Below, piece after piece: positions 1 through 64,000 of a DNA stretch of 64,000 nucleotides. The notes under the pieces are model-generated. The model was not told the origin of the DNA, made no database searches, and worked only from the letters and a program-made list of their open reading frames with translations. Positions within the stretch are counted from its first letter, which is position 1; every line of letters begins with the position of its first letter. The position numbers and the translations under genes are program-made. The DNA comes from Euonymus europaeus (taxonomy: Eukaryota; Streptophyta; Magnoliopsida; Celastrales; Celastraceae). The stretch spans positions 17,797,001-17,861,000 of the forward strand of contig OY756966.1 in NCBI GenBank assembly GCA_963580455.1, in the 5' to 3' direction.

Positions 1-2533
1 TTGAGCAACTTCGGACAATCAAAATTGCTCGGGATAGACTTTTTATTGTTTTTCTATGTCAAATTTTACGAGTATAAGCTTCCTACATTATTTCTATTCC
101 AAAACACCAACTTTCTATGACAAATGGACAAAACCGTTAAAAGCTCCTCCATAGAGAGAGTTGAGCAACTTCGGACTATCAAAGTTGCTCGGGATAGACT
201 TTTTATTGTTCTTCTATGTCAAATCTTACGAATATAAGCTTCAGAGATTATTTCGATGCCAAAACACCAACTTTCTATGACAAATAGACAAAACCGTTAA
301 AAGCTCCTCCATAGAGAGAGTTGAGCAACTTCGAACTATCAAAGTTCCTCGGGATAGACTTTTTATTGTTCTTCTATGTCAAATTTTACGAGTTTAAGCT
401 TCCTACATTATTTCGATGACAAAACACCAACTTTCTATGACAAATGGACAAAACCGTTAAAAGCTCCTCCATAGAGAGAGTTGAGCAACTTCGGACTGTG
501 AAAGTTGCACGGGATAGACTTTTTATTGTTCTTCTATGTCAAATTTTACGAGTATAAGCTTCCTACATTATTTCGATGCCAAAACACCAACTTTCTATGA
601 CAAATGGACAAAACCGTTAAAAGCTCCTCCATAGAGAGTTTTGAGCAACTTCGGACTGTGAAAGTTGCTCGGGATAGACTTTTATTGTTCTTCTATGTCA
701 AATTTTACGAGTATAAGCTTCAGAGATTATTTCGATGCCAAAACACCAACTTTCTATGACAAATAGACAAAACCGTTAAGAGCTCATCATAGAGAGAGTT
801 GAGCAATTTCGGACCATCAAAGTTGCTCGGGATAGACTTTTATTGTTTTTCTATGTCAACTTTTACGAGTATAAGCTTCCTACATTATTTCGATGCCAAA
901 ACACCAACTTTCTATGACAAATGGACAAAATCGTTAAAAGCTCCTCCATAGAGAGAGTTGAGCAACTTCGGACTATCAAAGTTGCTCGGGATAGACTTTT
1001 AATTGTTCTTCTATGTCAAATTTTATGAGTATAAGCTTCCTAGATTATTTCGATGCCAAAACACCAACTTTCTTTGACAAATGGACAAAACCGTTAAAAG
1101 CTCCTCCATAGAGAGTTTTGAGCAACTTCGGACTGTGAAAGTTGCTCGGGATAGACTTTTAATTGTTCTTCTATGTCAAATTTAACGAGTATAAGCTTCA
1201 TACATTATTTCAATGCAAAAACACCAACTTTCTATGACAAATGCACAAAACCGTTAAAAGCTCCTCCATAGAGAGAGTTGAGCAATTTCGGACTATCAAA
1301 GTTAATCGGGATAGACTTTTAATTGTTCTTCTATGTCAAATTTTACGAGTATAAACTTCATAGATTATTTCGAGTCCAAAACACCAACTTTCTATGACAA
1401 ATAGATAAAACCGTTAAAAGGTCCTCCATAGAGAGAGTTGAGCAACTTCGGACCAACAAAGTTGCTCGGGATAGACTTTTTATTGTACTTCTATGTCAAA
1501 TTTTACGAGTATAAGCTTCCTACATTATTTCTATTCCAAAACACCAACTTTCTATGACAAACGGACAAAACCGTTAAAAGCTCCTCCATAGAGAGAGTTG
1601 AGCAACTTCGGACTATCAAAGTTGCTCGGGATAGACTTTTTATTGTTCTTCTATGTCAAATCTTACGAATATAAGCTTCAGAGATTATTTCGATGCCAAA
1701 ACACCAACTTTCTATGACAAATAGACAAAACCGTTAAAAGCTCCTCCATATGAGAGTTGAGCAACTTCGAACTATCAAAGTTCCTCGGGATAGACTTTTT
1801 ATTGTTCTTCTATGTCAAATTTTACGAGTTTAAGCTTCCTACATTATTTCGATGACAAATGGACAAAACCGTTAAAAGCTCCTCCATAGAGAGAGTTGAG
1901 CAACTTCGGACTGTGAAAGTTGCACGGGATAGACTTTTTATTGTTCTTCTATGTCAAATTTTACGAGTATAAGCTTCCTACATTATTTCGATGCCAAAAC
2001 ACCAACTTTCTATGACAAATGGACAAAACCGTTAAAAGCTCCTCCATAGAGAGAGTTGAGCAATTTCGGACTATCAAAGTTGCTCCGGATAGACTTTTTA
2101 TTGTTCTTCTAAGTCAAATTTTACGAGTATAAGCTTCAGAGATTATTTCGATGCCAAAACACCAACTTTCTATGACAAATAGACAAAACCGTTAAGAGCT
2201 CATCATGGAGAGAGTTGAGCAATTTCGGACCATCAAAGTTGCTCGGGATAGACTTTTATTGTTTTTCTATGTCAACTTTTACGAGTATAAGCTTCCTACA
2301 TTATTTCGATGCCAAAACACCAACTTTCTATGATAAATTGACAAAACCGTTAAAAGCTCCTCCATAGAGAGAGTTGAGCAACTTCGGACTATCAAAGTTG
2401 CTCGGGATAGACTTTTAATTGTTCTTCTATGTCACATTTTACGAGTATAAGCTTCCTACATTATTTCGATCCCAAAACACCAACTTTCTATGACCAATGG
2501 ACAAAACCGTCAAAAGCACCTCCATAGAGAGAG
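1..2533 (+). repeat. 16-monomer higher-order repeat, copy 1 (2533 bp)
   Basis: Using letters for monomer variants, the order is A B C D F G H I J K B C D L G E. A has GGACAATCAAAATTGCTC. B has CTTACGAATATAAGCTTCAG. C has AAGTTCCTCGGG. D has CTGTGAAAGTTGCAC. K has GGACCAACAAAG. The same order reappears at 3334-5888. This copy is 22 bp shorter, fully explained by a 1-bp loss near 1751 and a 21-bp deletion near 1852. Apart from those I saw only about eight to ten substitutions between copies. The B-C-D trio occurs twice within the unit, so the 16-mer itself grew by an earlier internal duplication. Confidence 0.9.
163..190. other. Perfect 9-bp dyad in a satellite monomer (representative)
   Basis: GAGCAACTT at 163-171 and its exact reverse complement AAGTTGCTC at 182-190 are separated by 10 bases. 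The arrangement recurs at the same place in most common-type monomers, so the array contains a short hairpin-capable element about every 160 bp. Several variants break one arm (C type AAGTTCCTC, D type AAGTTGCAC, T type GAGCAACCT). Confidence 0.85.
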
Positions 2534-3333
2534 TTGAGCAACTTCGGACAATCAAAATTGCTCGGGATAGACTTTTTATTGTTTTTCTATGTCAAATTTT
2601 ACGAGTATAAGCTTCCTACATTATTTCTATTCCAAAACACCAACTTTCTATGACAAATGGACAAAACCGTTAAAAGCTCCTCCATAGAGAGAGTTGAGCA
2701 ACTTCGGACTATCAAAGTTGCTCGGGATAGACTTTTTATTGTTCTTCTATGTCAAATCTTACGAATATAAGCTTCAGAGATTATTTCGATGCCAAAACAC
2801 CAACTTTCTATGACAAATAGACAAAACCGTTAAAAGCTCCTCCATAGAGAGAGTTGAGCAACTTCGAACTATCAAAGTTCCTCGGGATAGACTTTTTATT
2901 GTTCTTCTATGTCAAATTTTACGAGTTTAAGCTTCCTACATTATTTCGATGACAAAACACCAACTTTCTATGACAAATGGACAAAACCGTTAAAAGCTCC
3001 TCCATAGAGAGAGTTGAGCAACTTCGGACTGTGAAAGTTGCACGGGATAGACTTTTTATTGTTCTTCTATGTCAAATTTTACGAGTATAAGCTTCCTACA
3101 TTATTTCGATGCCAAAACACCAACTTTCTATGACAAATGGACAAAACCGTTAAAAGCTCCTCCATAGAGAGAGTTGAGCAACTTCGGACTATCAAAGTTG
3201 CTCGGGATAGACTTTTAATTGTTCTTCTATGTCACATTTTACGAGTATAAGCTTCCTACATTATTTCGATCCCAAAACACCAACTTTCTATGACCAATGG
3301 ACAAAACCGTCAAAAGCACCTCCATAGAGAGAG
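2534..3333 (+). repeat. 5-monomer block A-B-C-D-E (800 bp) between HOR copies
   Basis: Five exact 160-bp monomers. The last one, E (3174-3333), carries the same private variants as the monomer at 2374-2533: GTCACATTTT, GACCAATGG and GTCAAAAGCACC. The block therefore looks like an extra A-B-C-D joined to a copied E, placed between two 16-monomer units. The next A monomer follows at 3334. Confidence 0.88.
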
Positions 3334-5888
3334 TTGAGCAACTTCGGACAATCAAAATTGCTCGGGATAGACTTTTTATTGTTTTTCTATGTCAAATTTT
3401 ACGAGTATAAGCTTCCTACATTATTTCTATTCCAAAACACCAACTTTCTATGACAAATGGACAAAACCGTTAAAAGCTCCTCCATAGAGAGAGTTGAGCA
3501 ACTTCGGACTATCAAAGTTGCTCGGGATAGACTTTTTATTGTTCTTCTATGTCAAATCTTACGAATATAAGCTTCAGAGATTATTTCGATGCCAAAACAC
3601 CAACTTTCTATGACAAATAGACAAAACCGTTAAAAGCTCCTCCATAGAGAGAGTTGAGCAACTTCGAACTATCAAAGTTCCTCGGGATAGACTTTTTATT
3701 GTTCTTCTATGTCAAATTTTACGAGTTTAAGCTTCCTACATTATTTCGATGACAAAACACCAACTTTCTATGACAAATGGACAAAACCGTTAAAAGCTCC
3801 TCCATAGAGAGAGTTGAGCAACTTCGGACTGTGAAAGTTGCACGGGATAGACTTTTTATTGTTCTTCTATGTCAAATTTTACGAGTATAAGCTTCCTACA
3901 TTATTTCGATGCCAAAACACCAACTTTCTATGACAAATGGACAAAACCGTTAAAAGCTCCTCCATAGAGAGTTTTGAGCAACTTCGGACTGTGAAAGTTG
4001 CTCGGGATAGACTTTTATTGTTCTTCTATGTCAAATTTTACGAGTATAAGCTTCAGAGATTATTTCGATGCCAAAACACCAACTTTCTATGACAAATAGA
4101 CAAAACCGTTAAGAGCTCATCATAGAGAGAGTTGAGCAATTTCGGACCATCAAAGTTGCTCGGGATAGACTTTTATTGTTTTTCTATGTCAACTTTTACG
4201 AGTATAAGCTTCCTACATTATTTCGATGCCAAAACACCAACTTTCTATGACAAATGGACAAAATCGTTAAAAGCTCCTCCATAGAGAGAGTTGAGCAACT
4301 TCGGACTATCAAAGTTGCTCGGGATAGACTTTTAATTGTTCTTCTATGTCAAATTTTATGAGTATAAGCTTCCTAGATTATTTCGATGCCAAAACACCAA
4401 CTTTCTTTGACAAATGGACAAAACCGTTAAAAGCTCCTCCATAGAGAGTTTTGAGCAACTTCGGACTGTGAAAGTTGCTCGGGATAGACTTTTAATTGTT
4501 CTTCTATGTCAAATTTAACGAGTATAAGCTTCATACATTATTTCAATGCAAAAACACCAACTTTCTATGACAAATGCACAAAACCGTTAAAAGCTCCTCC
4601 ATAGAGAGAGTTGAGCAATTTCGGACTATCAAAGTTAATCGGGATAGACTTTTAATTGTTCTTCTATGTCAAATTTTACGAGTATAAACTTCATAGATTA
4701 TTTCGAGTCCAAAACACCAACTTTCTATGACAAATAGATAAAACCGTTAAAAGGTCCTCCATAGAGAGAGTTGAGCAACTTCGGACCAACAAAGTTGCTC
4801 GGGATAGACTTTTTATTGTACTTCTATGTCAAATTTTACGAGTATAAGCTTCCTACATTATTTCTATTCCAAAACACCAACTTTCTATGACAAATGGACA
4901 AAACCGTTAAAAGCTCCTCCATAGAGAGAGTTGAGCAACTTCGGACTATCAAAGTTGCTCGGGATAGACTTTTTATTGTTCTTCTATGTCAAATCTTACG
5001 AATATAAGCTTCAGAGATTATTTCGATGCCAAAACACCAACTTTCTATGACAAATAGACAAAACCGTTAAAAGCTCCTCCATAGAGAGAGTTGAGCAACT
5101 TCGAACTATCAAAGTTCCTCGGGATAGACTTTTTATTGTTCTTCTATGTCAAATTTTACGAGTTTAAGCTTCCTACATTATTTCGATGACAAAACACCAA
5201 CTTTCTATGACAAATGGACAAAACCGTTAAAAGCTCCTCCATAGAGAGAGTTGAGCAACTTCGGACTGTGAAAGTTGCACGGGATAGACTTTTTATTGTT
5301 CTTCTATGTCAAATTTTACGAGTATAAGCTTCCTACATTATTTCGATGCCAAAACACCAACTTTCTATGACAAATGGACAAAACCGTTAAAAGCTCCTCC
5401 ATAGAGAGAGTTGAGCAACTTCGGACTATCAAAGTTGCTCCGGATAGACTTTTTATTGTTCTTCTAAGTCAAATTTTACGAGTATAAGCTTCAGAGATTA
5501 TTTCGATGCCAAAACACCAACTTTCTATGACAAATAGACAAAACCGTTAAGAGCTCATCATGGAGAGAGTTGAGCAATTTCGGACCATCAAAGTTGCTCG
5601 GGATAGACTTTTATTGTTTTTCTATGTCAACTTTTACGAGTATAAGCTTCCTACATTATTTCGATGCCAAAACACCAACTTTCTATGATAAATGGACAAA
5701 ACCGTTAAAAGCTCCTCCATAGAGAGAGTTGAACAACTTCGGACTATCAAAGTTGCTCGGGATAGACTTTTAATTGTTCTTCTATGTCAAATTTTACGAG
5801 TATAAGCTTCCTACATTATTTCGATCCCAAAACACCAACTTTCTATGACAAATGGACAAAACCGTCAAAAGCACCTCCATAGAGAGAG
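3334..5888 (+). repeat. 16-monomer higher-order repeat, copy 2 (2555 bp)
   Basis: Same monomer order as 1-2533, starting with variant A at 3334 and ending before the A-type monomer at 5889 (TTGAGAAACTTCGGACAATC). It keeps the full-length C monomer that is deleted in copy 1. Shared private changes, such as AAAATCGTT in monomer H and GTTAATCGGG in monomer J, confirm that the two are copies of one unit rather than chance similarity. Confidence 0.9.
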
Positions 5889-7485
5889 TTGAGAAACTTC
5901 GGACAATCAAAATTGCTCGGGATAGACTTTTTATTGTTTTTCTATGTCAAATTTTACGAGTATAAGCTTCCTACATTATTTCTATTCCAAAACACCAACT
6001 TTCTATGACAAATGGACAAAACCGTTAAAAGCTCCTCCATAGAGAGAGTTGAGCAACTTCGGACTATCAAAGTTGCTCGGGATAGACTTTTTATTGTTCT
6101 TCTATGTCAAATCTTACGAATATAAGCTTCAGAGATTATTTCGATGCCAAAACACCAACTTTCTATGACAAATAGACAAAACCGTTAAAAGCTCCTCCAT
6201 AGAGAGAGTTGAGCAACTTCGAACTATCAAAGTTCCTCGGGATAGACTTTTTATTGTTCTTCTATGTCAAATTTTACGAGTTTAAGCTTCCTACATTATT
6301 TCGATGACAAAACACCAACTTTCTATGACAAATGGACAAAACCGTTAAAAGCTCCTCCATAGAGAGAGTTGAGCAACTTCGGACTGTGAAAGTTGCACGG
6401 GATAGACTTTTTATTGTTCTTCTATGTCAAATTTTACGAGTATAAGCTTCCTACATTATTTCGATGCCAAAACACCAACTTTCTATGACAAATGGACAAA
6501 ACCGTTAAAAGCTCCTCCATAGAGAGAGTTGAGCAACTTCGGACTATCAAAGTTGCTCGGGATAGACTTTTACTGTTCTTCTATGTCAAATTTTACGAGT
6601 ATAAGCTTCAGAGATTATTTCGATGCCAAAACACCAACTTTCTATGACAAATAGACAAAACCGTTAAGAGCTCATCATAGAGAGAGTTGAGCAATTTCGG
6701 ACCATCAAAGTTGCTCGGGATAGACTTTTATTGTTTTTCTATGTCAACTTTTACGAGTATAAGCTTCCTACATTATTTCGATGCCAAAACACCAACTTTC
6801 TATGACAAATGGACAAAACCGTTAAAAGCTCCTCCATAGAGAGAGTTGAGCAACTTCGGACTATCAAAGTTGCTCGGGATAGACTTTTAATTGTTCTTCT
6901 ATGTCAAATTTTATGAGTATAAGCTTCCTAGATTATTTCGATGCCAAAACACCAACTTTCTTTGACAAATGGACAAAACCGTTAAAAGCTCCTCCATAGA
7001 GAGTTTTGAGCAACTTCGGACTGTGAAAGTTGCTCGGGATAGACTTTTAATTGTTCTTCTATGTCAAATTTAACGAGTATAAGCTTCATACATTATTTCA
7101 ATGCAAAAACACCAACTTTCTATGACAAATGCACAAAACCGTTAAAAGCTCCTCCATAGAGAGAGTTGAGCAATTTCGGACTATCAAAGTTGCTCGGGAT
7201 AGACTTTTAATTGTTCTTCTATGTCAAATTTTACGAGTATAAACTTCATAGATTATTTCGAGTCCAAAACACCAACTTTCTATGACAAATACACAAAAAT
7301 GTTAAAAGCTCCTCCATAGAGAGAGTTGAGCAACTTCGGACTATCAAAGTTGCTCGGGATAGACTTTTTATTGTTCTTCTATGTCAAATTTTACGAAAAT
7401 AAGCTTCCTAGATTATGTCGATGCCAAAACACCAACTTTCTATGACAAATGGACAAAACCGTTAAAAGCTCCTCCATAGAGAGAG
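5889..7485 (+). repeat. Partial, shuffled copy of the 16-monomer HOR
   Basis: Begins A-B-C-D as in the other copies, then an L/F-like monomer with ACTTTTACTG, then G, H, I and J. J here reads GTTGCTCGGG instead of GTTAATCGGG. After J the order leaves the 16-mer. The monomer at 7326 carries TTACGAAAATAAGC and ATTATGTCG and leads into the 19-monomer unit that follows. This is a transition between two HOR families. Confidence 0.8.
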
Positions 7486-10400
7486 TTGAGCAACTTCGGA
7501 CCATCAAAGTTGCTCGGAGTACACTTTTTATTGTTCTTCTATGTCAAATTTTACGAAAATAGGCATCCTAGATTATGTCGATGCCAAAACACCAACTTTC
7601 TATGACAAATGGACAAAACCGTTAAAAGGTCCTCCATAGAGAGAGTTGAGCAACTTTGGACCAACAAAGTTGCTCGGGATAGACTTTTTATTGTACTTCT
7701 ATGTCAAATTTTACGAGTATAAGCTTCCTACATTATTTCTATTCCAAAACACCAACTTTCTATGACAAATGGACAAAACCGTTAAAAGCTCCTCCATAGA
7801 GAGAGTTGAGCAACTACAGACTATCAAAGTTGCTCGGGATAGACTTTTAATTGTTCTTCTATGTCAAATTTTACGAGTATAAGCTTCCTACATTATTTCG
7901 ATGCCAAAACACCAACTTTCTATGACAAATGGACAAAACCGTGAAAAGCTCCTCCATAGAGAGAGTTGAGCAACTACAGACTATCAAAATTGCTCGGGAT
8001 AGACTTTTAATTGTTCTTCTATGTCAAATTTAACGAGTATAAGCTTCCTAGATTATTTCGATGCCAAAACACCAACTTTCTATGACAAATAGACAAAACC
8101 GTTAAAAGGTCCTCCATAGAGAGAGTTGAGCAACTTCGGACCATCAAAGTTTCTCGGGATAGACTTTACATTGTTCTTCTATGTCAAATTTTATGAGTAT
8201 AAGCTTCCTAGATTATTTCGATGCCAAAACCCCTACTTTCTTTGACAAATGGACAAAACCGTTAAAAGCTCCTCCATAGAGAGTTTTGAGCAACTTCGGA
8301 CTGTGAAAGTTGCTCGGGATAGACTTTTAATTGTTCTTCTATGTCAAATTTAACGAGTATAAGCTTCATACATTATTTCAATGCAAAAACACCAACTTTC
8401 TATGACAAATGCACAAAACCGTTAAAAGCTCCTCCATAGAGAGAGTTGAGCAATTTCGGACTATCAAAGTTGCTCGGGATAGACTTTTAATTGTTATTCT
8501 ATGTCAAATTTTACGAGTATAAACTTCATAGATTATTTCGAGTCCAAAACACCAACTTTCTATGACAAATACACAAAAATGTTAAAAGCTCCTCCATAGA
8601 GAGAGTTGAGCAACTTCGGACTATCAAAGTTGCTCGGGATAGACTTTTTATTGTTCTTCTATGTCAAATTTTACGAGTATAAGCTTTCAACATTATTTCG
8701 ATGCCAAAACACCAACTTTCAATGACAAATAGATAAAACCGTTAAAAGCTCCTGCATAGAGAGAGTTGAGCAACTTCGGACTATCAAAGTTGCTCGGGAT
8801 AGACTTTTTATTGTTCTTTTATGTCAAATTTTACGAGTATAAGCTTCCTACATTATTTCGATGCCAAAACACCAACTTTCTATGACAAATGGACAAAACC
8901 GTTAAAAGGTCCTCCATAGAGAGAGTTGAGCAACTTCGGACCAACAAAGTTGCTCGGGATAGACTTTTTATTGTACTTCTATGTCAAATTTTACGAGTAT
9001 AAGCTTCCTACATTATTTCTATTCCAAAACACCAACTTTCTATGACAAATGGACAAAACCGTTAAAAGCTCCTCCATAGAGAGAGTTGAGCAACTTCGGA
9101 ATATCAAAGTTGCTTGGGATAGACTTTTTATTGTTCTTCTATGTCAAATCTTACGAATATAAGCTTCAGAGATTATTTCGATGCCAAAACACCAACTTTC
9201 TATGACAAATAGACAAAACCGTTAAAAGCTCCTCCATAGAGAGAGTTGAGCAACTTCGAACTATCAAAGTTCCTCGGGATAGACTTTTTATTGTTCTTCT
9301 ATGTCAAATTTTACGAGTTTAAGCTTCCTACATTATTTCGATGACAAAACACCAACTTTCTATGACAAATGGACAAAACCGTTAAAAGCTCCTCCATAGA
9401 GAGAGTTGAGCAACTTCGGACTGTGAAAGTTGCACGGGATAGACTTTTTATTGTTCTTCTATGTCAAATTTTACGAGTATAAGCTTCCTACATTATTTCT
9501 ATGCCAAAACACCAACTTTCTATGACAAATAGACAAAACCGTTAAAAGGTCCTCCATAGAGAGAGTTGAGCAACTTCGGACCATCAAAGTTTCTCGGGAT
9601 AGACTTTATATTGTTCTTCTATGTCAAATTTTATGAGTATAAGCTTCCTAGATTATTTCGATGCCAAAACACCAACTTTCTTTGACAAATGGACAAAACC
9701 GTTAAAAGCTCCTCCATAGAGAGTTTTGAGCAACTTCGGACTGTGAAAGTTGCTCGGGATAGACTTTTAATTGTTCTTCTATGTCAAATTTAACGAGAAT
9801 AAGCTTCATACATTATTTCAATGCAAAAACACCAACTTTCTATGACAAATGCACAAAACCGTTAAAAGCTCCTCCATAGAGAGAGTTGAGCAATTTCGGA
9901 CTATCAAAGTTGCTCGGGATAGACTTTTAATTGTTCTTCTATGTCAAATTTTACGAGTATAAACTTCATAGATTATTTCGAATCCAAAACACCAACTTTC
10001 TATGACAAATACACAAAAATGTTAAAAGCTCCTCCATAGAGAGAGTTGAGCAACTTCGGACTATCAAAGTTGCTCGGGATAGACTTTTTATTGTTCTTCT
10101 ATGTCAAATTTTACGAGTATAAGCTTTCAACATTATTTCGATGCCAAAACACCAACTTTCAATGACAAATAGATAAAACCGTTAAAAGCTCCTGCATAGA
10201 GAGAGTTGAGCAACTTCGGACTATCAAAGTTGCTCGGGATAGACTTTTTATTGTTCTTTTATGTCAAATTTTACGAGTATAAGCTTCCTACATTATTTCG
10301 ATGCCAAAACACCAACTTTCTATGACAAATGGACAAAACCGTTAAAAGGTCCTCCATAGAGAGAGTTGAGCAACTTCGGACCAACAAAGTTGCTCGGGAT

Positions 10401-10525
10401 AGACTTTTTATTGTACTTCTATGTCAAATTTTACGAGTATAAGCTTCCTACATTATTTCTATTCCAAAATACCAACTTTCTATGACAAATGGACAAAACC
10501 GTTAAAAGCTCCTCCATAGAGAGAG
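7486..10525 (+). repeat. 19-monomer higher-order repeat, copy 1 (3040 bp)
   Basis: Exactly 19 x 160 bp. It starts with a monomer carrying GCTCGGAGTACAC, followed by a K-type monomer (CAACTTTGGACCAACAAAG) and two monomers with CAACTACAGAC. Next come monomers with GTTTCTCGGG, I, J, one with GCTTTCAACATT, one with TTGTTCTTTTATG, and K. The run from GTTTCTCGGG to K then recurs after B, C and D. The same 19-monomer order repeats directly at 10526. I noticed roughly ten differences in 3040 bp, for example AATAGGCATCC here against AATAAGCATCC in copy 2. Confidence 0.93.
8126..9565 (+). repeat. Nested 9-monomer repeat (1440 bp)
   Basis: Order: GTTTCTCGGG monomer, I, J, GCTTTCAACATT monomer, TTCTTTTATG monomer, K, B, C, D. 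The full 9-mer also occurs at 11166-12605 and 12606-14045. Its first six monomers occur at 9566-10525. It is therefore a shorter repeat embedded in the 19-mer and older than the 3040-bp duplication. Confidence 0.85.
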
Positions 10526-13500: not shown

Positions 13501-13565
13501 ATTCCAAAATACCAACTTTCTATGACAAATGGACTAAACCGTTAAAAGCTCCTCCATAGAGAGAG
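10526..13565 (+). repeat. 19-monomer higher-order repeat, copy 2 (3040 bp)
   Basis: Direct tandem copy of 7486-10525 at an offset of exactly 3040 bp with no indel. Private changes include TTGTGCAACTACAG at its third monomer, CGATTCCAAAAC in the B-type monomer and CTATATTATTTCG in the C-type monomer. The copy ends where the next monomer at 13566 is a B type (GGAATATC) rather than the GCTCGGAGTACAC starter. Confidence 0.93.
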
Positions 13566-18450: not shown

Positions 18451-18469
18451 TGATAAGTGCCAGAATGTA

Positions 18470-51013: not shown

Positions 51014-52610
51014 TTGAGCAACTTAGGACTATCAAAATTGCTCGAGATAGACTTTTTATTGTTCTTCTATGTCAAATTTTACAAGTATAAGCTTCCTACA
51101 TTATTTCGACGCCAAAACACCAACTTTCGATGACAAATGGACAAAACCGTTAAAAGCTCCTCCATAGAGAGAGTTGAGCAACTTCGGACTATCAAAATTG
51201 CCCTATGTACACTTTTTATTGTTCTTCTATGTGTAATTTTACGAGTATAACTTCCTATATTATATTGATGCCAAAACAATAACTTTCTATGACAAATGGA
51301 TAAAACCGTTAAAAGCTCATCCATAGAGAGAGTTGAGAAACTTCGGACTATCAAAGTTGCTCGGGATAGACTTTTTATTGTTCTTCTATGTCAAATTTTA
51401 TGAGTATAAGCTTCAGAGATTATTTTGATGCCAAAACACCAACTTTCTTTGACAAATTGACAAAACCGTTAAGAGCTCCTCCGTAGAGAGAGTTGAGCAA
51501 CTTCGGACCATCAAAGTTGCTCGGGATAGACTTTCTATTGTTCTTCTATGTCAAATTTTATGAGTATAAGCTTCCTAGATTATTTCGATGCCAAAACACC
51601 AACTTTCTTTGACAAATGGACAAAACCGTTAAAAGCTCCTCCATAGAGAGAGTTGAGCAACTTCGGATGTGAAAGTTGCTCGGGATAGACTTTTTATTGT
51701 TCTTCTATGTCAAATTTTACGAGTATAAGCTTCCTACATTATTTCGATGCCAAAACACCAACTTTCTATGACAAATACACAAAACCGTTAAAAGCTCCTC
51801 CATAGAGAGAGTTGAACAACATCGGACTATCAAAGTTGCTCGGGATAGACTTTTTATTGTTCTTCTATGTCAAATTTTACGAGTATAAGCTTCCTACATT
51901 ATTTCGATGCCAAAACACCAACTTTCTATGACAAATGGACAAAACCGTGAAAAGCTCCTCCATAGAGAGAGTTGAGCAACTTCGGACTTTCAAAGTTGCT
52001 CGGGATAGACTTTTTATTGTTCTTCTATGTCGAATCTTATGAGTATAAGCTTCCTAAAATTATTTCGATTCCAAAACACGAACTTTCTATGACAAATGGA
52101 CAAAACCGTTAAAAGCTCCTCGATAGAGAGAGTTGAGCAACCTCGGACCATCAAAGTTGCTCGGTGTACAATTTCCATTGTTCTTATATGTCAAATTTTA
52201 TGACTATAGGCTTCCTAGATTATTTCGATGCGAAACACCAACTTTCTTTGACAAATGGGCAAAGCCGTTAAAAGCTCCTCCATAGAGAGAGTTGAGCAAC
52301 TTCGGACCATCAAAGTTGCTCGGGATAGACTTTCTATTGTTCTTCTTTGTCAAATTTAGGAGTATAAGCTTCCTGGATTATTTCGATGCCAAAACACCAA
52401 CTTTCTTTGACAAATGGACAAAATCGTTAAAAGCTCCTCCATAGAGAGAGCTGAGCAACTTCGGACTGTGAAAGTTGCTCGGGATAGACTTTTAATTGTT
52501 CTTCTATGAAACATTTTACGAGTATAAGCTTCCTACATTATTTCGATTCCAAAACACCAACTTTCTATGACAGATGGACAAAACCGTTAAAAGCTCCTCC
52601 ATAGAGAGAG
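51014..52610 (+). repeat. 10-monomer higher-order repeat, copy 1 (1597 bp)
   Basis: Order includes CAACTTAGGAC, TTGCCCTATGTACAC, a TTGAGAAACTTCGG monomer ending in CAGAG, GGATGTGAAAG, TTGAACAACATCGG, a monomer with CTAAAATTATTTCG, S, R, and CTGAGCAACTTCGG. The unit repeats at +1597 (51014/52611). Its last monomer is a hybrid, described under findings. Confidence 0.9.
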
Positions 52611-54140
52611 TTGAGCAACTTAGGACTATCAAAATTGCTCGAGATAGACTTTTTATTGTTCTTCTATGTCAAATTTTACAAGTATAAGCTTCCTACATTA
52701 TTTCGACGCCAAAACACCAACTTTCGATGACAAATGGACAAAACCGTTAAAAGCTCCTCCATAGAGAGAGTTGAGCAACTTCGGACTATCAAAATTGCCC
52801 TATGTACACTTTTTATTGTTCTTCTATGTGTAATTTTACGAGTATAACTTCCTATATTATATTGATGCCAAAACAATAACTTTCTATGACAAATGGATAA
52901 AACCGTTAAAAGCTCATCCATAGAGAGAGTTGAGAAACTTCGGACTATCAAAGTTGCTCGGGATAGACTTTTTATTGTTCTTCTATGTCAAATTTTATGA
53001 GTATAAGCTTCAGAGATTATTTTGATGCCAAAACACCAACTTTCTTTGACAAATTGACAAAACCGTTAAGAGCTCCTCCGTAGAGAGAGTTGAGCAACTT
53101 CGGACCATCAAAGTTGCTCGGGATAGACTTTCTATTGTTCTTCTATGTCAAATTTTATGAGTATAAGCTTCCTAGATTATTTCGATGCCAAAACACCAAC
53201 TTTCTTTGACAAATGGACAAAACCGTTAAAAGCTCCTCCATAGAGAGAGTTGAGCAACTTCGGATGTGAAAGTTGCTCGGGATAGACTTTTTATTGTTCT
53301 TCTATGTCAAATTTTACGAGTATAAGCTTCCTACATTATTTCGATGCCAAAACACCAACTTTCTATGACAAATACACAAAACCGTTAAAAGCTCCTCCAT
53401 AGAGAGAGTTGAACAACATCGGACTATCAAAGTTGCTCGGGATAGACTTTTTATTGTTCTTCTATGTCAAATTTTACGAGTATAAGCTTCCTACATTATT
53501 TCGATGCCAAAACACCAACTTTCTATGACAAATGGACAAAACCGTGAAAAGCTCCTCCATAGAGAGAGTTGAGCAACTTCGGACTTTCAAAGTTGCTCGG
53601 GATAGACTTTTTATTGTTCTTCTATGTCGAATCTTATGAGTATAAGCTTCCTAAAATTATTTCGATTCCAAAACACGAACTTTCTATGACAAATGGACAA
53701 AACCGTTAAAAGCTCCTCGATAGAGAGAGTTGAGCAACCTCGGACCATCAAAGTTGCTCGGTGTACAATTTCCATTGTTCTTATATGTCAAATTTTATGA
53801 CTATAGGCTTCCTAGATTATTTCGATGCGAAACACCAACTTTCTTTGACAAATGGGCAAAGCCGTTAAAAGCTCCTCCATAGAGAGAGTTGAGCAACTTC
53901 GTACCATCAAAGTTGCTCGGATAGACTTTCTATTGTTCTTCTTTGTCAAATTTAGGAGTATAAGCTTCCTAGATTATTTCGATGCCAAAACACCAACTTT
54001 CTTTGACAAATGGACAAAATCGTTAAAAGCTCCTCCATAGAGAGAGCTGAGCAACTTCGGACTGTGAAAGTTGCTCGGGATAGACTTTTAATTGTTCTTC
54101 TATGAAACATTTTACGAGTATAAGCTTCCTACATTATTTC
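52611..54140 (+). repeat. 10-monomer higher-order repeat, copy 2
   Basis: Near-identical tandem copy of 51014-52610. It ends inside the monomer that carries TTCTATGAAACATTTTACG, where copy 1 reads CGATTCC and this copy reads CGATGCC. A one-base loss (GCTCGGATAGAC near 53920) is private to this copy. Confidence 0.88.
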
Positions 54141-57100
54141 GATGCCAAAACACCAACTTTCTATGACAAATGGATAAAACCATTAAAAGCTCCTCCATAG
54201 AGAGAGTTGAGCAACTTCGGACTTTCAAAGTTGCTCGGGATAGACTTTTAATTTTTCTTCTATGTCAACTTTTACGAGTATAAGCTTCATAGATTATTTC
54301 GAGTCCAAAACACCAACTTTCTATGACAGATAGACAAAAATGTTAAAAGCTCCTCCATAGAGAAAGTTGAGCAACTTCGGACTATCAAAGTTGCTCGGGA
54401 TAGACTTTTTATTGTTCTTTTATGTCAAATCTTACGAGTATAAGCTTTCTACATTATTTCGAAGCCAAAACACCAACTTTCTATGACAAATGGACAAAAC
54501 CGTTAAAAGCACCTCCATAGAGAGACTTGAGCAACTTCGGACTATCAAAGTTGCTCAGGATAGACTTTTTATTGTTCTTCTATTTCAAATTTTACGAGTA
54601 TAAGCTTCCTACATTATTTCGATTCCAAAACACCAACTTTCTATGACAGATGGACAAAACCGTTAAAAGCTCCTCCATAGAGAGAGTTGAGCAACTTCGG
54701 AATATCAAAGTTGCTCGGGATAGACTTTTAATTGTTCTTCTATGTCAAATTTTACGAGTATAAGCTTCCTACATTATTTCGATGCCAAAATACCAACTTT
54801 CTATGACAAATGGATAAAACCGTTAAAAGCTCCTCCATAGAGAGAGTTGAGCAACTTAGGACTATCAAAATTGCTCGAGATAGACTTTTTATTGTTCTTC
54901 TATGTCAAATTTTACAAGTATAAGCTTCAGAGATTATTTTGATGCCAAAACACCAACTTTCTATGACAAATGGACAAAACCGTTAAAAGCTCCTCCATAG
55001 AGAGAGTTGAGCAACTTCGGACTATCAAAATTGCCCTATGTACACTATTTATTGTTCTTCTATGTTACATTTTACGAGTATAACTTCCTATATTATATTG
55101 ATGCCAAAACAATAACTTTCTATGACAAATGGACAAAACCGTTAAAAGCTCCTCCATAGAGAGAGTTGAGCAACTTCGGACTATCAAAGTTGCTCGGGAT
55201 AGACTTTTTATTGTTCTTCTATGTCAAATTTTACGAGTATAAGCTTCAGAGATTATTTTGATGCCAAAACACCAACTTTCTATGACAAATTGACATAACC
55301 GTTAAGAGCTCCTCCGTAGAGAGAGTTGAGCAACTTCATAATATCAAAGTTGCTCGGGATAGACTTTTAATTGTTCTTCTATGTCAAATTTTACGAGTAT
55401 AAGCTTCCTACATTATTTCGACGCCAAAACACCAACTTTCGATGACAAATGGACAAAACCGTTAAAAGCTCCTCCATAGAGAGAGTTGAGCAACTTCGGA
55501 CTATCAAAATTGCCCTATGTACACTTTTTATTGTTCTTCTATGTTACATTTTACGAGTATAACTTCCTATATTATATTGATGCCAAAACAATAACTTTCT
55601 ATGACAAATGGACAAAACCGTTAAAAGCTCCTCCATAGAGAGAGTTGAGCAACTTCGGACTATCAAAGTTGCTCGGGATAGACTTTTTATTGTTCTTCTA
55701 TGTCAAATTTTACGAGTATAAGCTTCAGAGATTATTTTGATGCCAAAACACCAACTTTCTATGACAAATTGACAAAACCGTTAAGAGCTCCTCCGTAGAG
55801 AGAGTTGAGCAACTTCGGACCATCAAAGTTGCTCGGGATAGACTTTCTATTGTTCTTCTATGTCAAATTTTATGAGTATAAGCTTCCTAGATTATTTCGA
55901 TGCCAAAACACCAACTTTCTTTGACAAATGGACAAAACCGTTAAAAGCTCCTACATAGAGAGTTGAGCAACTTCGGATGTGAAAGTTGCTCGGGATAGAC
56001 TTTTTATTGTTCTTCTATGTCAAATTTTACGAGTATAAGCTTCCTACATTATTTCGATGCCAAAACACCAACTTTCTATGACAAATACACAAAACCGTTA
56101 AAAGCTCCTCCATAGAGAGAGTTGAGCAACATCGGACTATCAAAGTTGCTCGGGATAGACTTTTTATTGTTCTTCTATGTCAAATTTTACGAGTATAAGC
56201 TTCCTACATTATTTCGATGCCAAAACACCAACTTTCTATGACAAATGGACAAAACCGTAAAAAGCTCCTCCATAGAGAGAGTTGAGCAACTTCGGACTAT
56301 CAAAGTTGCTCGGGATAGACTTTTATTGTTCTTTTATGTCAAATTTTACGAGTATAAGCTTCCTACATTATTTCGATTCGAAAACACCAACTTTCTATGA
56401 CAAATGGACAAAACCGTTAAAAGCTCCTCGATAGAGAGAGTTGAGCAACCTCGGACCATCAAAGTTGCTCGGTGTACAATTTCCATTGTTCTTATATGTC
56501 AAATTTTATGACTATAAGCTTCCTAGATTATTTCGATGCCAAAACACCAACTTTCTTTGACAAATGGCCAAAGCCGTTAAAAGCTCCTCCATAGAGAGAG
56601 TTGAGCAACTTCGGACCATCAAAGTTGCTCGGGATAGACTTTCTATTGTTCTTCTTTGTCAAATTTAGGAGTATAAGCTTCCTAGATTATTTCGATGCCA
56701 AAACACCAACTTTCTTTGACAAATGGACAAAATCGTTAAAAGCTCCTCCATAGAGAGAGCTGAGCAACTTCGGACTGTGAAAGTTGCTCGGGATAGACTT
56801 TTAATTGTTCTTCTATGAAACATTTTACGAGTGTAAGCTTCCTACATTATTTCGATGCCAAAACACCAACTTTCTATGACAAATGGACAAAACCATTAAA
56901 AGCTCCTCCATAGAGAGAGTTGAGCAACTTCGGACTTTCAAAGTTGCTCGGGATAGACTTTTAATTTTTCTTCTATGTCAACTTTTACGAGTATAAGCTT
57001 CATAGATTATTTCGAGTCCAAAACACCAACTTTCTATGACAAATAGACAAAAATGTTAAAAGCTCCTCCATAGAGAAAGTTGAGCAACTTCGGACTATCA

Positions 57101-57879
57101 AAGTTGCTCGGGATAGACTTTTTATTGTTCTTTTATGTCAACTCTTACGAGTATAAGCTTTCTACATTATTTCGAAGCCAAAACACCAACTTTCTATGAC
57201 AAATGGACAAAACCGTTAAAAGCTCCTCCATAGAGAGACTTGAGCAACTTCGGACTATCAAAGTTGCTCAGGATAGACTTTTTATTGTTCTTCTATTTCA
57301 AATTTTACGAGTATAAGCTTCCTACATTATTTCGATTCCAAAACACCAACTTTCTATGACAAATGGACAAAACCGTTAAAAGCTCCTCCATAGAGAGAGT
57401 TGAGCAACTTCGGACTATCAAAGTTGCTCGGGATAGAATTTTAATTGTTCTTCTATGTCAAATTTTACGAGTATAAGCTTCCTACATTATTTCGATGCCA
57501 AAATACCAACTTTCTATGACAAATGGATAAAACCGTTAAAAGCTCCTCCATAGAGAGAGTTGAGCAACTTAGGACTATCAAAATTGCTCGGGATAGACTT
57601 TTTAGTGTTCTTCTATGTCAAATTTTACAAGTATAAGCTTCCTACATTATTTCGACGCCAAAACACCAACTTTCGATGACAAATGGACAAAACCGTTAAA
57701 AGCTCCTCCATAGAGAGAGTTGAGCAACTTCGGACTATCAAAATTGCCCTATGTACACTTTTTATTGTTCTTCTATGTTACATTTTATGAGTATAAGCTT
57801 CCTAGATTATTTCGATGCCAAAACACCAACTTTCTTTGACAAATGGACAAAACCGTTAAAAGCTCCTCCATAGAGAGAT
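54141..57879 (+). repeat. Irregular 17-monomer periodicity
   Basis: The GGACTTTCAAAG marker monomer appears at 54207, 56920 and 59637, spacings of 2713 and 2717 bp (about 17 monomers). The first monomers after each marker agree (AGAGAAAGTTGAG, then GAGACTTGAG with GCTCAGGATAG). The later order differs between copies, so this is an older or reshuffled HOR. No gene was seen. Confidence 0.7.
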
Positions 57880-60800
57880 TTGAGCAACTTCGGATGTGAA
57901 AGTTGCTCGGGATAGACTTTTTATTGTTCTTCTATGTCAAATTTTACGAGTATAAGCTTCAGAGATTATTTTGATGCCAAAACACCAACTTTCTATGACA
58001 AATTGACAAAACCGTTAGGAGCTCCTCCGTAGAGAGAGTTGAGCAACTTCGGACCATCAAAGTTGCTCGGGATAGACTTTCTATTGTTCTTCTATGACAA
58101 ATTTTATGAGTATAAGCTTCCTAGATTATTTCGATGCCAAAACACCAACTTTCTTTGACAAATGGACAAAACCGTTAAAAGCTCCTCCATAGAGAGAGTT
58201 GAGCAACTTCGGATGTGAAAGTTGCTCGGGATAGACTTTTTATTGTTCTTCTATGTCAAATTTTACGAGTATAAGCTTCCTACATTATTTCGATGCCAAA
58301 ACACCAACTTTCTATGACAAATGGACAAAACCGTTAAAAGCTCCTCCATAGAGAGAGTTGAGCAACTTCGGATTATCAAAGTTGCTCGGGATAGACTTTT
58401 TATTGTTCTTTTATGTCAAATTTTACGAGTATAAGCTTTCTACATTATTTCGATTCCAAAACACCAACTTTCTATGACAAATGGACAAAACCGTTAAAAG
58501 CTCCTCCATAGAGAGAGTTGAGCAACTTCGGACTATCAAAGTTGCTCGGGATAGACTTTTAATTGTTCTTCTATGTCAAATTTTACGAGTATAAGCTTCC
58601 TACATTATTTCGATGCCAAAATACCAACTTTCTATGACAAATGGATAAAACCGTTAAAAGCTCCTCCATAGAGAGAGTTGAGCAACTTAGGACTATCAAA
58701 ATTGCTCGGGATAGACTTTTTAGTGTTCTTCTATGTCAAATTTTACAAGTATAAGCTTCCTACATTATTTCGACGCCAAAACACCAACTTTCGATGACAA
58801 ATGGACAAAACCGTTAAAAGCTCCTCCATAGAGAGAGTTGAGCAACATCGGACTATCAAAGTTGCTCGGGATAGACTTTTTATTGTTCTTCTATGTCAAA
58901 TTTTACGAGTATAAGCTTCCTACATTATTTCGATGCCAAAACAACAACTTTCTATGACAAATGGACAAAACCGTTAAAAGCTCCTCCATAGAGAGAGTTG
59001 AGCAACTTCGGACTATCAAAGTTGCTCGGGATAGACTTTTTATTGTTCTTTTATGTCAAATTTTACGAGTATAAGCTTCCTACATTATTTCGATTCCAAA
59101 ACACCAACTTTCTATGACAAATGGACAAAACCGTTAAAAGCTCCTCGATAGAGAGAGTTGAGCAACCTCGGACCATCAAAGTTGCTCGGTGTACAATTTC
59201 CATTGTTCTTATATGTCAAATTTTATGACTATAAGCTTCCTAGATTATTTCGATGCCAAAACACCAACTTTCTTTGACAAATGGGCAAAGCCGTTAAAAG
59301 CTCCTCCATAGAGAGAGTTGAGCAACTTCGGACCATCAAAGTTGCTCGGGATAGACTTTCTATTGTTCTTCTTTGTCAAATTTAGGAGTATAAGCTTCCT
59401 AGATTATTTCGATGCCAAAACACCAACTTTCTTTGACAAATGGACAAAACCGTTAAAAGCTCCTCCATAGAGAGAGCTGAGCAACTTCGGACTGTGAAAG
59501 TTGCTCGGGATAGACTTTTAATTGTTCTTCTATGAAAAATTTTACGAGTATAAGCTTATTACATTATTTCGATGCCAAAACACCAACTTTCTATGACAAA
59601 TGGACAAAACCATTAAAAGCTCCACCATAGGGAGAGTTGAGCAACTTCGGACTTTTAAAGTTGCTCGGGATAGACTTTTAATTTTTCTTCTATGTCAACT
59701 TTTACGAGTATAAGCTTCATAGATTATTTCGAGTCCAAAACACCAACTTTCTATGACAAATAGACAAAAATCTTAAAAGCTCCTCCATAGAGAAAGTTGA
59801 GCAACTTTTGACTATCAAAGTTGCTCGGGATAGACTTTTTATTGTTCTTTTATGTCAAATCTTACGAGTATAAGCTTTCTACATTATTTCGAAGCCAAAA
59901 CACCAACTTTCTATGACAAATGGACAAAACCGTTAAAAGCTCCTCCATAGAGAGACTTGAGCAACTTCGGACTATTAAAGTTGCTCAGGATAGACTTTTT
60001 ATTGTTCTTCTATTTCAAATTTTACGAGTATAAGCTTCCTACATTATTTCGATTCCAAAACACCAACTTTCTATGACAGATGGACAAAACCGCTAAAAGC
60101 TCCTCCATAGAGAGAGTTGAGCAACTTCGGACTATCAAAGTTGCTCGGGATAGACTTTTAATTGTTCTTCTATGTCAAATTTTACGAGTATAAGCTTCCT
60201 ACATTATTTCGATGCCAAAATACCAACTTTCTATGACAAATGGACAAAACCGTTAAAAGCTCCTCCATAGAGAGAGTTGAGCAACTTAGGACTATCAAAA
60301 TTGCTCGGGATAGACTTTTTATTGTTCTTCTATGTCAAATTTTACAAGTATAAGCTTCCTACATTATTTCGACACCAAAACACCAACTTTCGATGACAAA
60401 TGGACAAAACCGTTAAAAGCTCCTCCATAGAGAGAGTTGAGCAACTTCGGACTATCAAAATTGCCATATGTACACTTTTTATTGTTCTTCTATGTTACAT
60501 TTTACGAGTATAAGCTTCCTACATTATTTTGATGCCAAAACAATAACTTTCTATGAAAAATGGACAAAACCGTTAAAAGCTCCTCCATAGAGAGAGTTGA
60601 GCAACTTCGGACTATCAAAGTTGCTCGGGATAGACTTTTTATTGTTCTTCTATGTCAAATTTTACGAGTATAAGCTTCAGAGATTATTTTGATGCCAAAA
60701 CACCAACTTTCTATGACAAATTGACAAAACCGTTAAGAGCTCCTCCGTAGAGAGAGTTGAGCAACTTCGAACCATCAAAGTTGCTCGGGATAGACTTTCT

Positions 60801-60916
60801 ATTGTTCTTCTATGTCAAATTTTATGAGTATAAGCTTCCTAGATTATTTCGATGCCAAAACACCAACTTTCTTTGACAAATGGACAAAACCGTTAAAAGC
60901 TCCTCCATAGAGAGAT
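57880..60916 (+). repeat. 19-monomer higher-order repeat of the right zone, copy 1 (3037 bp)
   Basis: Starts at GATTTGAGCAACTTCGGATGTG. It includes a CCGTTAGGAGC monomer, CTTAGGAC with TTTTTAGTGTTC, CAACATCGG, S, R, CTGAGCAAC, and GGACTTTTAAAG with AAAATCTTAAAAGC. Anchors repeat at exactly +3037: 57880/60917, 59477/62514 and 59649/62686. Confidence 0.92.
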
Positions 60917-63900
60917 TTGAGCAACTTCGGATGTGAAAGTTGCTCGGGATAGACTTTTTATTGTTCTTCTATGTCAAATTTTACGAGTATAAGCTTCAGA
61001 GATTATTTTGATGCCAAAACACCAACTTTCTATGACAAATTGACAAAACCGTTAGGAGCTCCTCCGTAGAGAGAGTTGAGCAACTTCGGACCATCAAAGT
61101 TGCTCGGGATAGACTTTCTATTGTTCTTCTATGTCAAATTTTATGAGTATAAGCTTCCTAGATTATTTCGATGCCAAAACACCAACTTTCTTTGACAAAT
61201 GGACAAAACCCTTAAAAGCTCCTCCATAGAGAGAGTTGAGCAACTTCGGATGTGAAAGTTGCTCGGGATAGACTTTTTATTGTTCTTCTATGTCAAATTT
61301 TACGAGTATAAGCTTCCTACATTATTTCGATGCCAAAACACCAACTTTCTATGACAAATGGACAAAACCGTTAAAAGCTCCTCCATAGAGAGAGTTGAGC
61401 AACTTCGGACTATCAAAGTTGATCGGGATAGACTTTTTATTGTTCTTTTATGTCAAATTTTACGAGTATAAGCTTTCTACATTATTTCGATTCCAAAACA
61501 CCAACTTTCTATGACAAATGGACAAAACCGTTAAAAGCTCCTCCATAGAGAGAGTTGAGCAACTTCGGACTATCTAAGTTGCTCGGGATAGACTTTTAAT
61601 TGTTCTTCTATGTCAAATTTTACGAGTATAAGCTTCCTACATTATTTCGATGCCAAAATACCAACTTTCTATGACAAATGGATAAAACCGTTAAAAGCTC
61701 CTCCATAGAGAGAGTTGAGCAACTTAGGACTATCAAAATAGCTCGGGATAGACTTTTTAGTGTTCTTCTATGTCAAATTTTACAAGTATAAGCTTCCTAC
61801 ATAATTTCGACGCCAAAACACCAACTTTCGATGACAAATGGACAAAACCGTTAAAAGCTCCTCCATAGAGAGAGTTGAGCAACATCGGACTATCAAAGTT
61901 GCTCGGGATAGACTTTTTATTGTTCTTCTATGTCAAATTTTACGAGTATAAGCTTCCTACATTATTTCGATGCCAAAACAACAACTTTCTATGACAAATG
62001 GACAAAACCGTTAAAAGCTCCTCCATAGAGAGAGTTGAGCAACTTCGGACTATCAAAGTTGCTCGGGATAGACTTTTTATTGTTCTTTTATGTCAAATTT
62101 TACGAGTATAAGCTTCCTACATTATTTCGATTCCAAAACACCAACTTTCTAAGACAAATGGACAAAACCGTTAAAAGCTCCTCGATAGAGAGAGTTGAGC
62201 AACCTCGGACCATCAAAGTTGCTCGGTGTAAAATTTCCATTGTTCTTATATGTCAAATTTTATGACTATAAGCTTCCTAGATTATTTCGATGCCAAAACA
62301 CCAACTTTCTTTGACAAATGGGCAAAGCCGTTAAAAGCTCCTCCATAGAGAGAGTTGAGCAACTTCGGACCATCAAAGTTGCTCGGGATAGACTTTCTAT
62401 TTTTCTTCTTTGTCAAATTTAGGAGTATAAGCTTCCTAGATTATTTCGATGCCAAAACAGCAACTTTCTTTGACAAATGGACAAAACCGTTAAAAGCTCC
62501 TCCATAGAGAGAGCTGAGCAACTTCGGACTGTGAAAGTTGCTCGGGATAGACTTTTAATTGTTCTTCTATGAAAAATTTTACGAGTATAAGCTTCCTACA
62601 TTATTTCGATGCCAAAACACCAACTTTCTATGACAAATGGACAAAACCATTAAAAGCTCCTCCATAGGGAGAGTTGAGCAACTTCGGACTTTTAAAGTTG
62701 CTCGGGATAGACTTTTAATTTTTCTTCTATGTCAACTTTTACGAGTATAAGCTTCATAGATTATTTCGAGTCCAAAACACCAACTTTCTATGACAAATAG
62801 ACAAAAATCTTAAAAGCTCCTCCATAGAGAAAGTTGAGCAACTTCTGACTATCAAAGTTGCTCGGGATAGACTTTTTATTGTTCTTTTATGTCAAATCTT
62901 ACGAGTATAAGCTTTCTACATTATTTCGAAGCCAAAACACCAACTTTCTATGACAAATGGACAAAACCGTTAAAAGCTCCTCCATAGAGAGACTTGAGCA
63001 ACTTCGGACTATTAAAGTTGCTCAGGATAGACTTTTTATTGTTCTTCTATTTCAAATTTTACGAGTATAAGCTTCCTACATTATTTCGATTCCAAAACAC
63101 CAACTTTCTATGACAGATGGACAAAACCGCTAAAAGCTCCTCCATAGAGAGAGTTGAGCAACTTCGGACTATCAAAGTTGCTCGGGATAGACTTTTAATT
63201 GTTCTTCTATGTCAAATTTTACGAGTATAAGCTTCCTACATTATTTCGATGCCAAAATACCAACTTTCTATGACAAATGGACAAAACCGTTAAAAGCTCC
63301 TCCATAGAGAGAGTTGAGCAACTTAGGACTATCAAAATTGCTCGGGATAGACTTTTTATTGTTCTTCTATGTCAAATTTTACAAGTATAAGCTTCCTACA
63401 TTATTTCGATGCCAAAACACCAACTTTCGATGACAAATGGACAAAACCGTTAAAAGCTCCTCCATAGAGAGAGTTGAGCAACTTCGGACTATCAAAATTG
63501 CCATATGTACATTTTTTATTGTTCTTCTATGTTACATTTTACGAGTATAAGCTTCCTACATTATTTTGATGCCAAAACAATAACTTTCTATGAAAAATGG
63601 ACAAAACCGTTAAAAGCTCCTCCATAGAGAGAGTTGAGCAACTTCGGACTATCAAAGTTGCTCGGGATAGACTTTTTATTGTTCTTCTATGTCAAATTTT
63701 ACGAGTATAAGCTTCAGAGATTATTTTGATGCCAAAACACCAACTTTCTATGACAAATTGACAAAACCGTTAAGAGCTCCTCCGTAGAGAGAGTTGAGCA
63801 ACTTCGAACCATCAAAGTTGCTCGGGATAGACTTTCTATTGTTCTTCTATATCAAATTTTATGAGTATAAGCTTCCTAGATTATTTCGATGCCAAAACGA

Positions 63901-63953
63901 CAACTTTCTTTGACAAATGGACAAAACCGTTAAAAGCTCCTCCATAGAGAGAT
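60917..63953 (+). repeat. 19-monomer higher-order repeat of the right zone, copy 2 (3037 bp)
   Basis: Tandem copy of 57880-60916 with few substitutions, for example GTTGATCGGG near 61426, AAAATAGCTCGGG near 61737 and GTAAAATTTCC in its S type. A third copy begins at 63954. Confidence 0.92.
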
Positions 63954-64000
63954 TTGAGCAACTTCGGATGTGAAAGTTGCTCGGGATAGACTTTTTATTG
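63954..64000 (+). repeat. Start of a third 19-monomer copy, cut by the window end
   Basis: TTGAGCAACTTCGGATGTG again follows GAGAGAT, as at 57880 and 60917. The satellite clearly continues beyond the window. Confidence 0.85.

Follow-up and report, generated by a model that had tools for sequence, protein, structure and literature searches.

Here, we describe the fine structure of a satellite array in a 64,000-bp stretch of DNA (hereafter, the window; positions 17,797,001-17,861,000 of contig C10, which is 26.79 Mb long, in a genome of 443 Mb). The window is a single head-to-tail array of a 160-bp monomer on the + strand, with 394 complete monomers at a mean pairwise identity of 91.2%, and the sole break in it is a 1,062-bp insert at 18451-19512. 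We conclude, with a probability of roughly 0.6, that this is a likely centromeric plant satellite in which the many longer periods are adjacent blocks of whole monomers in about two copies, laid down successively, most likely by break-induced replication (BIR) out of register on the sister chromatid. Duplications were also catalogued in an extended region of 264 kb that adds 200 kb of flank (C10:17697001-17961000; 1,644 monomers), and all structural results rest on one assembled haplotype. Every gap column was counted in the distances used for mean identity, offset scores and label clustering, a gap run was taken as one difference in later monomer distances, and the mosaic, breakpoint and allele tests were made on consensus columns.

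Two-copy blocks in whole-monomer register

In seven of the 10 tandem runs in the window, run length equals offset (21, 5, 19, 9, 7, 10 and 19 monomers, with flank used for the 21-mer), which is the mark of a single block doubled in place; the other three have offsets of 27, 13 and 8 monomers and run lengths of 29, 15 and 12, respectively. All 10 stand at 1.95-2.5 copies that are 97.4-99.75% alike, and no exact run of three copies was found among them. The extended region holds 38 tandem runs of 1.9-2.83 copies (25 of them at 1.9-2.1), none of which reaches three; the runs inside its one 103-monomer duplication occur in both copies of that duplication and are thus counted twice. Unit size varies from 4 to 33 monomers in 37 of these runs and is 103 in the remaining one, with a median of 10. 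An interior sample (40 kb, 2.5 Mb away) is similar in make-up to the window, with nine tandem runs of 6-44 monomers.

Each new block adjoins its source. Among 195 shared segments at offsets of up to 40 monomers, the ratio of length to offset spikes at 1.00 (16 segments in 0.95-1.00, 4 in 0.9-0.95 and 3 in 0.8-0.9), a spike not expected from blocks pasted at a distance; 158 of the 195 segments are partial, with ratios below 0.9. In a base-level comparison that tried every offset from 20 to 29,999, all 24 tandem-like runs of the window (length at least 0.75 of the offset) lie within ~0.04 of a whole number of monomers, and no out-of-phase duplication was found among these 24. The many non-integer offsets of other segments are provisionally put down to one short monomer and to accumulated 159/160-bp length variants. 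Breakpoint positions within the monomer, placed by likelihood, are flat over 22 duplications (1.9-3.4 per 20 bp vs 2.75 expected, with wide intervals for several of them and with one duplication entering twice through its copies). Such an even spread gives no sign of a fixed cut site, and a breakpoint hot spot in the monomer, for example at its dyad, is unsupported.

The first-pass annotation of this stretch had predicted off-diagonals at 11 offsets, all of which are present (800, 1118, 1280, 1440, 1597, 2072, 2555, 2866/2870, 3037, 3040 and 4307/4304 bp). When runs of similar monomers were scored along each offset, their segment scores were 22-155, compared with best scores of 18 in 100 global shuffles of monomer order and 20 in 100 shuffles inside 27-monomer blocks; the weakest two are the 1280-bp offset (8-mer, 97.4%) and the 2866/2870-bp offset (18-mer, 97.7-98.3%, partial). 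The string of cluster labels likewise bears out the nesting described there: the 9-mer is found within the 19-mer unit and also spanning the second boundary of that unit, and the 16-mer contains the word B-C-D twice. Absent from that list were a 21-mer (3333/3355 bp), a 17-mer (2715 bp) and repeats of two and three monomers.

That annotation also spoke of strong order with a local period shifting every few kilobases and of zones enlarged locally, and this is supported: in four zones with hand-drawn borders, 96%, 63%, 96% and 90% of the monomers have their nearest relative in their own zone. Its broader terms hold in part. The proposed independent expansion of zones stands as local enlargement and fails as one fixed unit per zone, with unit length varying in zones 3 and 4. 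As for the "higher-order repeat (HOR) units", the periods are real and amplified units in the human sense are not; the repeats are two-copy duplications. HORs as defined for TRASH, that is, same-strand block pairs of at least 3 monomers in the same order with at most 5 variants per pair (PMC10199239), are plentiful, with 831 segments in the 264 kb at a comparable, not identical, threshold. The features of the window are as follows.

1-64000, + strand: 160-bp satellite array, 394 complete monomers; portion of a ~5.2 Mb array, judging by samples
1-6528, + strand: 21-monomer tandem duplication, 2.00 copies, 99.5%; second copy 3174-6528; offsets 3333/3355 bp
2374-3973, + strand: 5-monomer tandem pair (800 bp), 99.75%
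3174-7165, + strand: 16-monomer offset (2555 bp); 3174-4610 matches 5729-7165, 99.3%
7486-13565, + strand: 19-monomer tandem duplication (3040 bp), 2.00 copies, 99.74%
11166-14045, + strand: 9-monomer tandem duplication (1440 bp), 2.00 copies, 98.96%
13566-15801, + strand: 7-monomer tandem duplication (1118 bp), 2.00 copies, 98.75%
18451-19512, + strand: solo long terminal repeat (LTR), TG...CA, 1,062 bp; 5-bp target site duplication ATTAT at 18446-18450 and 19513-19517
19906-23105, + strand: 8-monomer run (1280 bp), 2.5 copies, 97.4%; most diverged of the ten tandem runs
24065-32995, + strand: 27-monomer tandem duplication (4307 bp), 2.07 copies, 99.59%
37144-41607, + strand: 13-monomer run (2072 bp), 2.15 copies, 97.9%
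39857-46071, + strand: partial, old 18-monomer offset (2866/2870 bp); 39857-41607 = 42723-44475 and 42086-43201 = 44956-46071
51014-54206, + strand: 10-monomer tandem duplication (1597 bp), 2.00 copies, 99.56%
52771-60916, + strand: older 17-monomer period (2715 bp); degenerate units, length varying by whole monomers
57720-57879, + strand: chimeric monomer, first 62-68 bases identical to one type, rest to another
57880-63953, + strand: 19-monomer tandem duplication (3037 bp), 2.00 copies, 99.31%

The first copy of the 21-mer begins one monomer (160 bp) left of the window; the edge leaves 20 of its 21 monomers visible, and all 21 are present once flank is added. A 139-bp monomer with a 21-bp deletion (1757-1895) occurs in only one copy of this duplication and thus likely arose after it. 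The 5-mer may be a junction effect of the 16-mer and 21-mer duplications: a 16-mer followed by a 21-mer duplication, or a 16-mer run with a 5-mer doubled, can equally account for the 5-mer and the 16-mer offset, with divergences too close to favour either course. The possibility that the last 19-mer runs past the window was rejected, as with flank it still has 2.00 copies and ends inside the window. In zones 3 (23905-47186) and 4 (47187-63953), with borders drawn by us, older units of ~10-19 monomers recur several times with gains and losses of whole monomers; this is real repetition of units, although not at one exact period.

Probable mechanism of block duplication

The duplications are ordered in time and local in range. 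In all 14 nested rows, the inner repeat is more diverged than the tandem duplication that encloses it (some rows are the same nest in both copies, so that rows overlap, and some inner runs are partial). For instance, the 9-mer, at 1.0% divergence, appears older than the 19-mer around it, at 0.26%, the second copy of which ends inside the 9-mer. The frequency of shared segments per 100,000 monomer pairs falls from ~360 at 0.8-3.2 kb to 18.5 at 48-64 kb and 0.9 at 64-96 kb, with 0 beyond, and no shared block with a score of at least 14 was found in the 264 kb between monomers more than 552 apart. When the duplications of the window were collapsed youngest first, nine were removed and 277 of the 394 monomers were left; most partial repeats stayed partial, and the complete history was not recovered.

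These features would be explained if a broken replication fork resumed copying from the sister chromatid, at a monomer some units back, so that the block between break and restart would be copied again beside itself; restart ahead would instead delete a block. The join would fall in register because the monomers are ~91% alike. Both BIR and unequal sister exchange have been described (PMC8997354). According to a review that favours BIR, the centromeres of Arabidopsis mutation-accumulation lines change by precise in-frame indels of 1-31 monomers, with insertions derived from adjacent sequence, consistent with BIR (PMC12321929); in the array described here, 36 of the 38 runs have units of up to 31 monomers, vs that range of 1-31.

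Out-of-register crossing-over between sister chromatids is the close rival of this model, though a less probable one; it would likewise set in-register duplicates side by side, with the partner sister losing the corresponding block. Under it, blocks should be adjacent, offset by whole monomers and lost as well as gained, and the anatomy of the array fits it equally well. Gains are many, and a single loss-type join was found, in the chimeric monomer at 57720-57879, which has 9 differences from its nearest single parent and 0 from two, with an in-register join at positions 62-68; from its sequence, such a join would be of the kind left by a two-monomer loss. Against this alternative, BIR is favoured and repair by single-strand annealing is suggested to bias exchange to loss (PMC12321929), and meiotic unequal crossover is considered unlikely as a general mechanism, with inter-sister crossover left open (PMC11579429). 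Our preference for BIR is in turn weakened by several points: one haplotype fits BIR and unequal sister exchange alike, the deletion-type join just described is the only clear one, and the 158 partial segments would have to be older, interrupted events.

We consider it very unlikely that each zone is a human-type HOR array, that is, one fixed unit amplified by repeated exchange at the same period. Diverged monomers within units whose copies are 97.4-99.75% alike, as well as the several-fold recurrence in zones 3 and 4 of degenerate units of 10-19 monomers, would fit such an array. However, none of the 38 runs in the 264 kb reaches three copies, and in simulations that re-used a period half the time or more, runs of at least 2.9 copies were lacking in only 0-8 of 100 trials.

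Still less credible is gene conversion, whereby blocks would be copied and pasted in from other parts of the array and not doubled where they stand. Many partial shared segments at offsets that exceed their length are in line with it, and so are two-parent mosaics, which were found at gain 4 in 94 of 391 monomers vs a mean of 32 in column-shuffled controls, and at gain of at least 6 in 5 of 391 vs 0. Besides the chimeric monomer, mosaics of the latter class are the monomers at 16122, 48619, 51014 and 52611, the last three of one type. The spike of length/offset at 1.00 argues against pasting at a distance, and the differences between young copies are close to random point changes: of 187 differences in 365 monomer pairs, the rarer allele is present at >0.2% in the array for 121 (65% vs 59% expected). 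These differences are more clustered than Poisson, and six of the 365 pairs carry 7-21 of them, the pair with 21 probably being that of the 139-bp monomer. On the 65% vs 59% comparison, short conversion tracts as the main source of young-copy differences are unsupported, and gene conversion seems to be a minor force between young copies in this array. Most point changes in Arabidopsis are attributed to short conversion tracts (PMC12321929); the low signal here may reflect either a real difference or a weak test.

False duplication by the assembler is equally improbable. Paired copies within the window are 0.25-2.6% apart, the order read from nesting is that read from divergence throughout the 14 rows, and the units span only 0.8-4.3 kb, far below the usual length of long reads; the finding of a kind that deserves a read check is the duplication of 103 monomers outside the window, which is 99.96% identical. 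This tandem duplication (~16.5 kb) lies at C10:17893743-17927183, that is, from 96743 onward in window coordinates.

Step size and re-use of periods

The step sizes are the less expected aspect of the array, with few one-monomer steps and no build-up of periods. Near-twins (at most 2 differences) are adjacent in 0 of 393 pairs in the window and 3 of 1,643 in the 264 kb, and neighbours are on average no less alike than other pairs (14.1 vs 14.5 differences). Geometric steps with a mean of 2 or 5 yielded a mean of 8-122 adjacent near-twins in simulations vs 0 in the window, and single-monomer slippage was rejected as the driver on this ground. In simulations of 60 events, both small-offset counts were reproduced in 38, 32 and 39 of 100 trials when steps were uniform with a minimum of 5, 7 or 10 monomers, respectively; a minimum of 1 or 2 did so in 10 and 11 trials, and geometric steps with a mean of 12 in 3. 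With 120 events, every step setting matched in only 0-6 of 100. A strict step limit is made less likely by near-identical pairs at offsets of 2, 3 and 4 monomers (14, 29 and 30 in the 264 kb) and by the 2- and 3-monomer pairs of the window (98.95% and 99.5%). The evidence thus suggests a lower limit without proving one.

With respect to period, simulated arrays of 1,644 monomers lacked runs of at least 2.9 copies in 37-50 of 100 trials when the existing period was ignored, in 14-20 when it was re-used a quarter of the time and, as noted above, rarely when re-use was more frequent. Taken at face value, these results would describe a duplication machinery with a lower limit of a few monomers that ignores the existing period and takes a new offset at each event, so that no unit is ever amplified; we regard this generalization as rather improbable. 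Several observations weigh against it or against the preferred model as a whole. The interior sample holds 3 adjacent near-twins in 249 monomers, a rate above that of the 264 kb, and one of its runs reaches 2.9 copies. In a smaller first simulation without preference, runs of at least 2.9 copies were lacking in only 6 of 15 trials with 250 events and 1 of 15 with 450. Furthermore, 13 of the 38 runs stand at 2.1-2.9 copies, whereas simulations give on average 1.9-2.5 such runs without preference and 3.5-6.2 with strong re-use, and this number fits no simulated setting. Finally, the degenerate units of zones 3 and 4 are repeated more than twice, and hence some re-use of periods did happen. Should the generalization be true, the making of higher-order blocks would be separate from their amplification, and HOR arrays of the human type would depend on something further, selection or drive, that is missing here.

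Chromosomal setting and the solo LTR

The satellite was present in all 23 short samples taken from C10 at 12.8-17.97 Mb and in none of 17 samples outside this interval, which gives an estimated array extent of ~5.2 Mb, with the right edge ~109-119 kb past the end of the window. It lies on the opposite strand in the samples at 12.8, 13.5, 15.9, 16.0, 16.1 and 16.25 Mb, and the large array thus holds inverted blocks. Elsewhere, all three other contigs sampled carry the satellite (6 of 20 short samples positive), and an open reading frame scan of three short flank samples yielded one 133-residue fragment. The genome is that of a plant, given 32 matches to the chlorophyll a/b-binding family. With a 160-bp monomer and an extent of ~5.2 Mb, the array falls within the range of plant centromeric satellites (monomers of 100-200 bp in megabase arrays) and is, as judged from sequence, likely the centromere of a plant chromosome.

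Positions 3-30 of the consensus monomer form an inverted repeat with 9-bp arms and a 10-bp loop (the dyad); variation is 3.2% in the arms vs 8.6% in the loop and 5.2% in the remaining monomer, and both arms are intact in 217 of the 394 monomers. A short dyad symmetry is not required of every plant centromeric satellite. A CENP-B-like appearance around the dyad, noted by eye, was dropped, the two halves of the motif being too far apart. The monomer subtype Bx (50695, 52771 and 55486) carries a dense cluster of changes at approximately positions 24-37, with the right dyad arm altered.

The insert at 18451-19512 stands alone between satellite monomers and is thus a solo LTR. A genome search with it gave at least 44 matches, including the window copy (40 of 859 candidates scored), and among the matches listed there are at least 3 cases of same-strand pairs ~10 kb apart. 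Three relatives were read together with flanking sequence: two continue into what we take to be a primer-binding-site-like stretch, and the third does not and may itself be a solo LTR or else a 3' LTR. Bases 1-57 of the LTR (18451-18507) are uncovered by its 43 other listed matches, though the target site duplication sets the end there. An Rfam scan of the insert gave no match.

Satellite homogenization is described as purging insertions (PMC12046899). In line with this, the satellite around the solo LTR, which is the only transposon remnant in the 264 kb, ranks among the sequence with the least recent duplication: monomers there have on average 2.58 differences from their nearest relatives, against a mean of 0.88 over the 264 kb, a value at the 98.7th percentile. 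This is one case, noticed after the fact, of a sole retroelement remnant sitting where duplication renewed little.

Comparison with known satellites

The array provides a clear fossil record of satellite growth because its monomers can be told apart (91%), its duplications are few enough not to overwrite one another fully and their ages are readable from nesting and divergence. The size, spacing and breakpoints of growth steps can accordingly be estimated from one assembly and compared with mutation-accumulation lines, in which, for Arabidopsis, Dong et al. 2025 reportedly observed in-frame block indels. No paper on this satellite was found in searches with 14-22-base pieces of the monomer or for 160-bp satellites; the one match, by name alone, is CEN160/AthCEN159 of Arabidopsis, which has a far smaller genome (~130 Mb; PMC10199239). 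Judging by titles and the openings of abstracts, none of the papers found tests how many copies each block has together with nested order and breakpoint position. How satellite arrays form was, according to a review of plant centromeres from 2024, still unclear (PMC11579429).

Kiwifruit Ach-CEN153 (PMC9909506), Populus Palv156 (PMC12046899) and Brachypodium CentBd/CentBs (PMC10910784) are satellites in HORs that resemble this one by description only. The first two have monomers of 153 and 156 bp, respectively; the similarity of Palv156 falls with distance (PMC12046899), and HOR block sizes in Brachypodium are highly variable (PMC10910784). Human alpha-satellite of the Willard type likewise combines diverged monomers in units with near-identical copies, but there one period is present in many copies, whereas here many periods are present in about two. 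In one human example, a 15-mer classed by its authors as cascading has 429 copies (PMC11050224). The cascading HORs of human chromosome 15 repeat a monomer type within the unit, as does the 16-mer of the window, yet they are amplified in long arrays (PMC11050224) and the units of the window are not.

Closest to the present case is Arabidopsis. CEN178/CEN180 shares with this array a satellite of approximately nucleosome length, a megabase extent and HORs, which are mostly of 2 or 3 monomers (PMC12321929) vs a median of 10 here, with calling methods that differ. The in-frame indels of Arabidopsis (reviewed in PMC12321929) are likewise blocks of whole monomers next to their source, from one to tens of monomers in size. 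In contrast to those indels, the steps in the window array are read as fossils and not observed, one-monomer steps are rare, one block comprises 103 monomers and young-copy differences are mostly point-change-like rather than conversion tracts. The process of block doubling is thus already known from Arabidopsis, as are plant HORs, and the array described here is an unusually legible further case.

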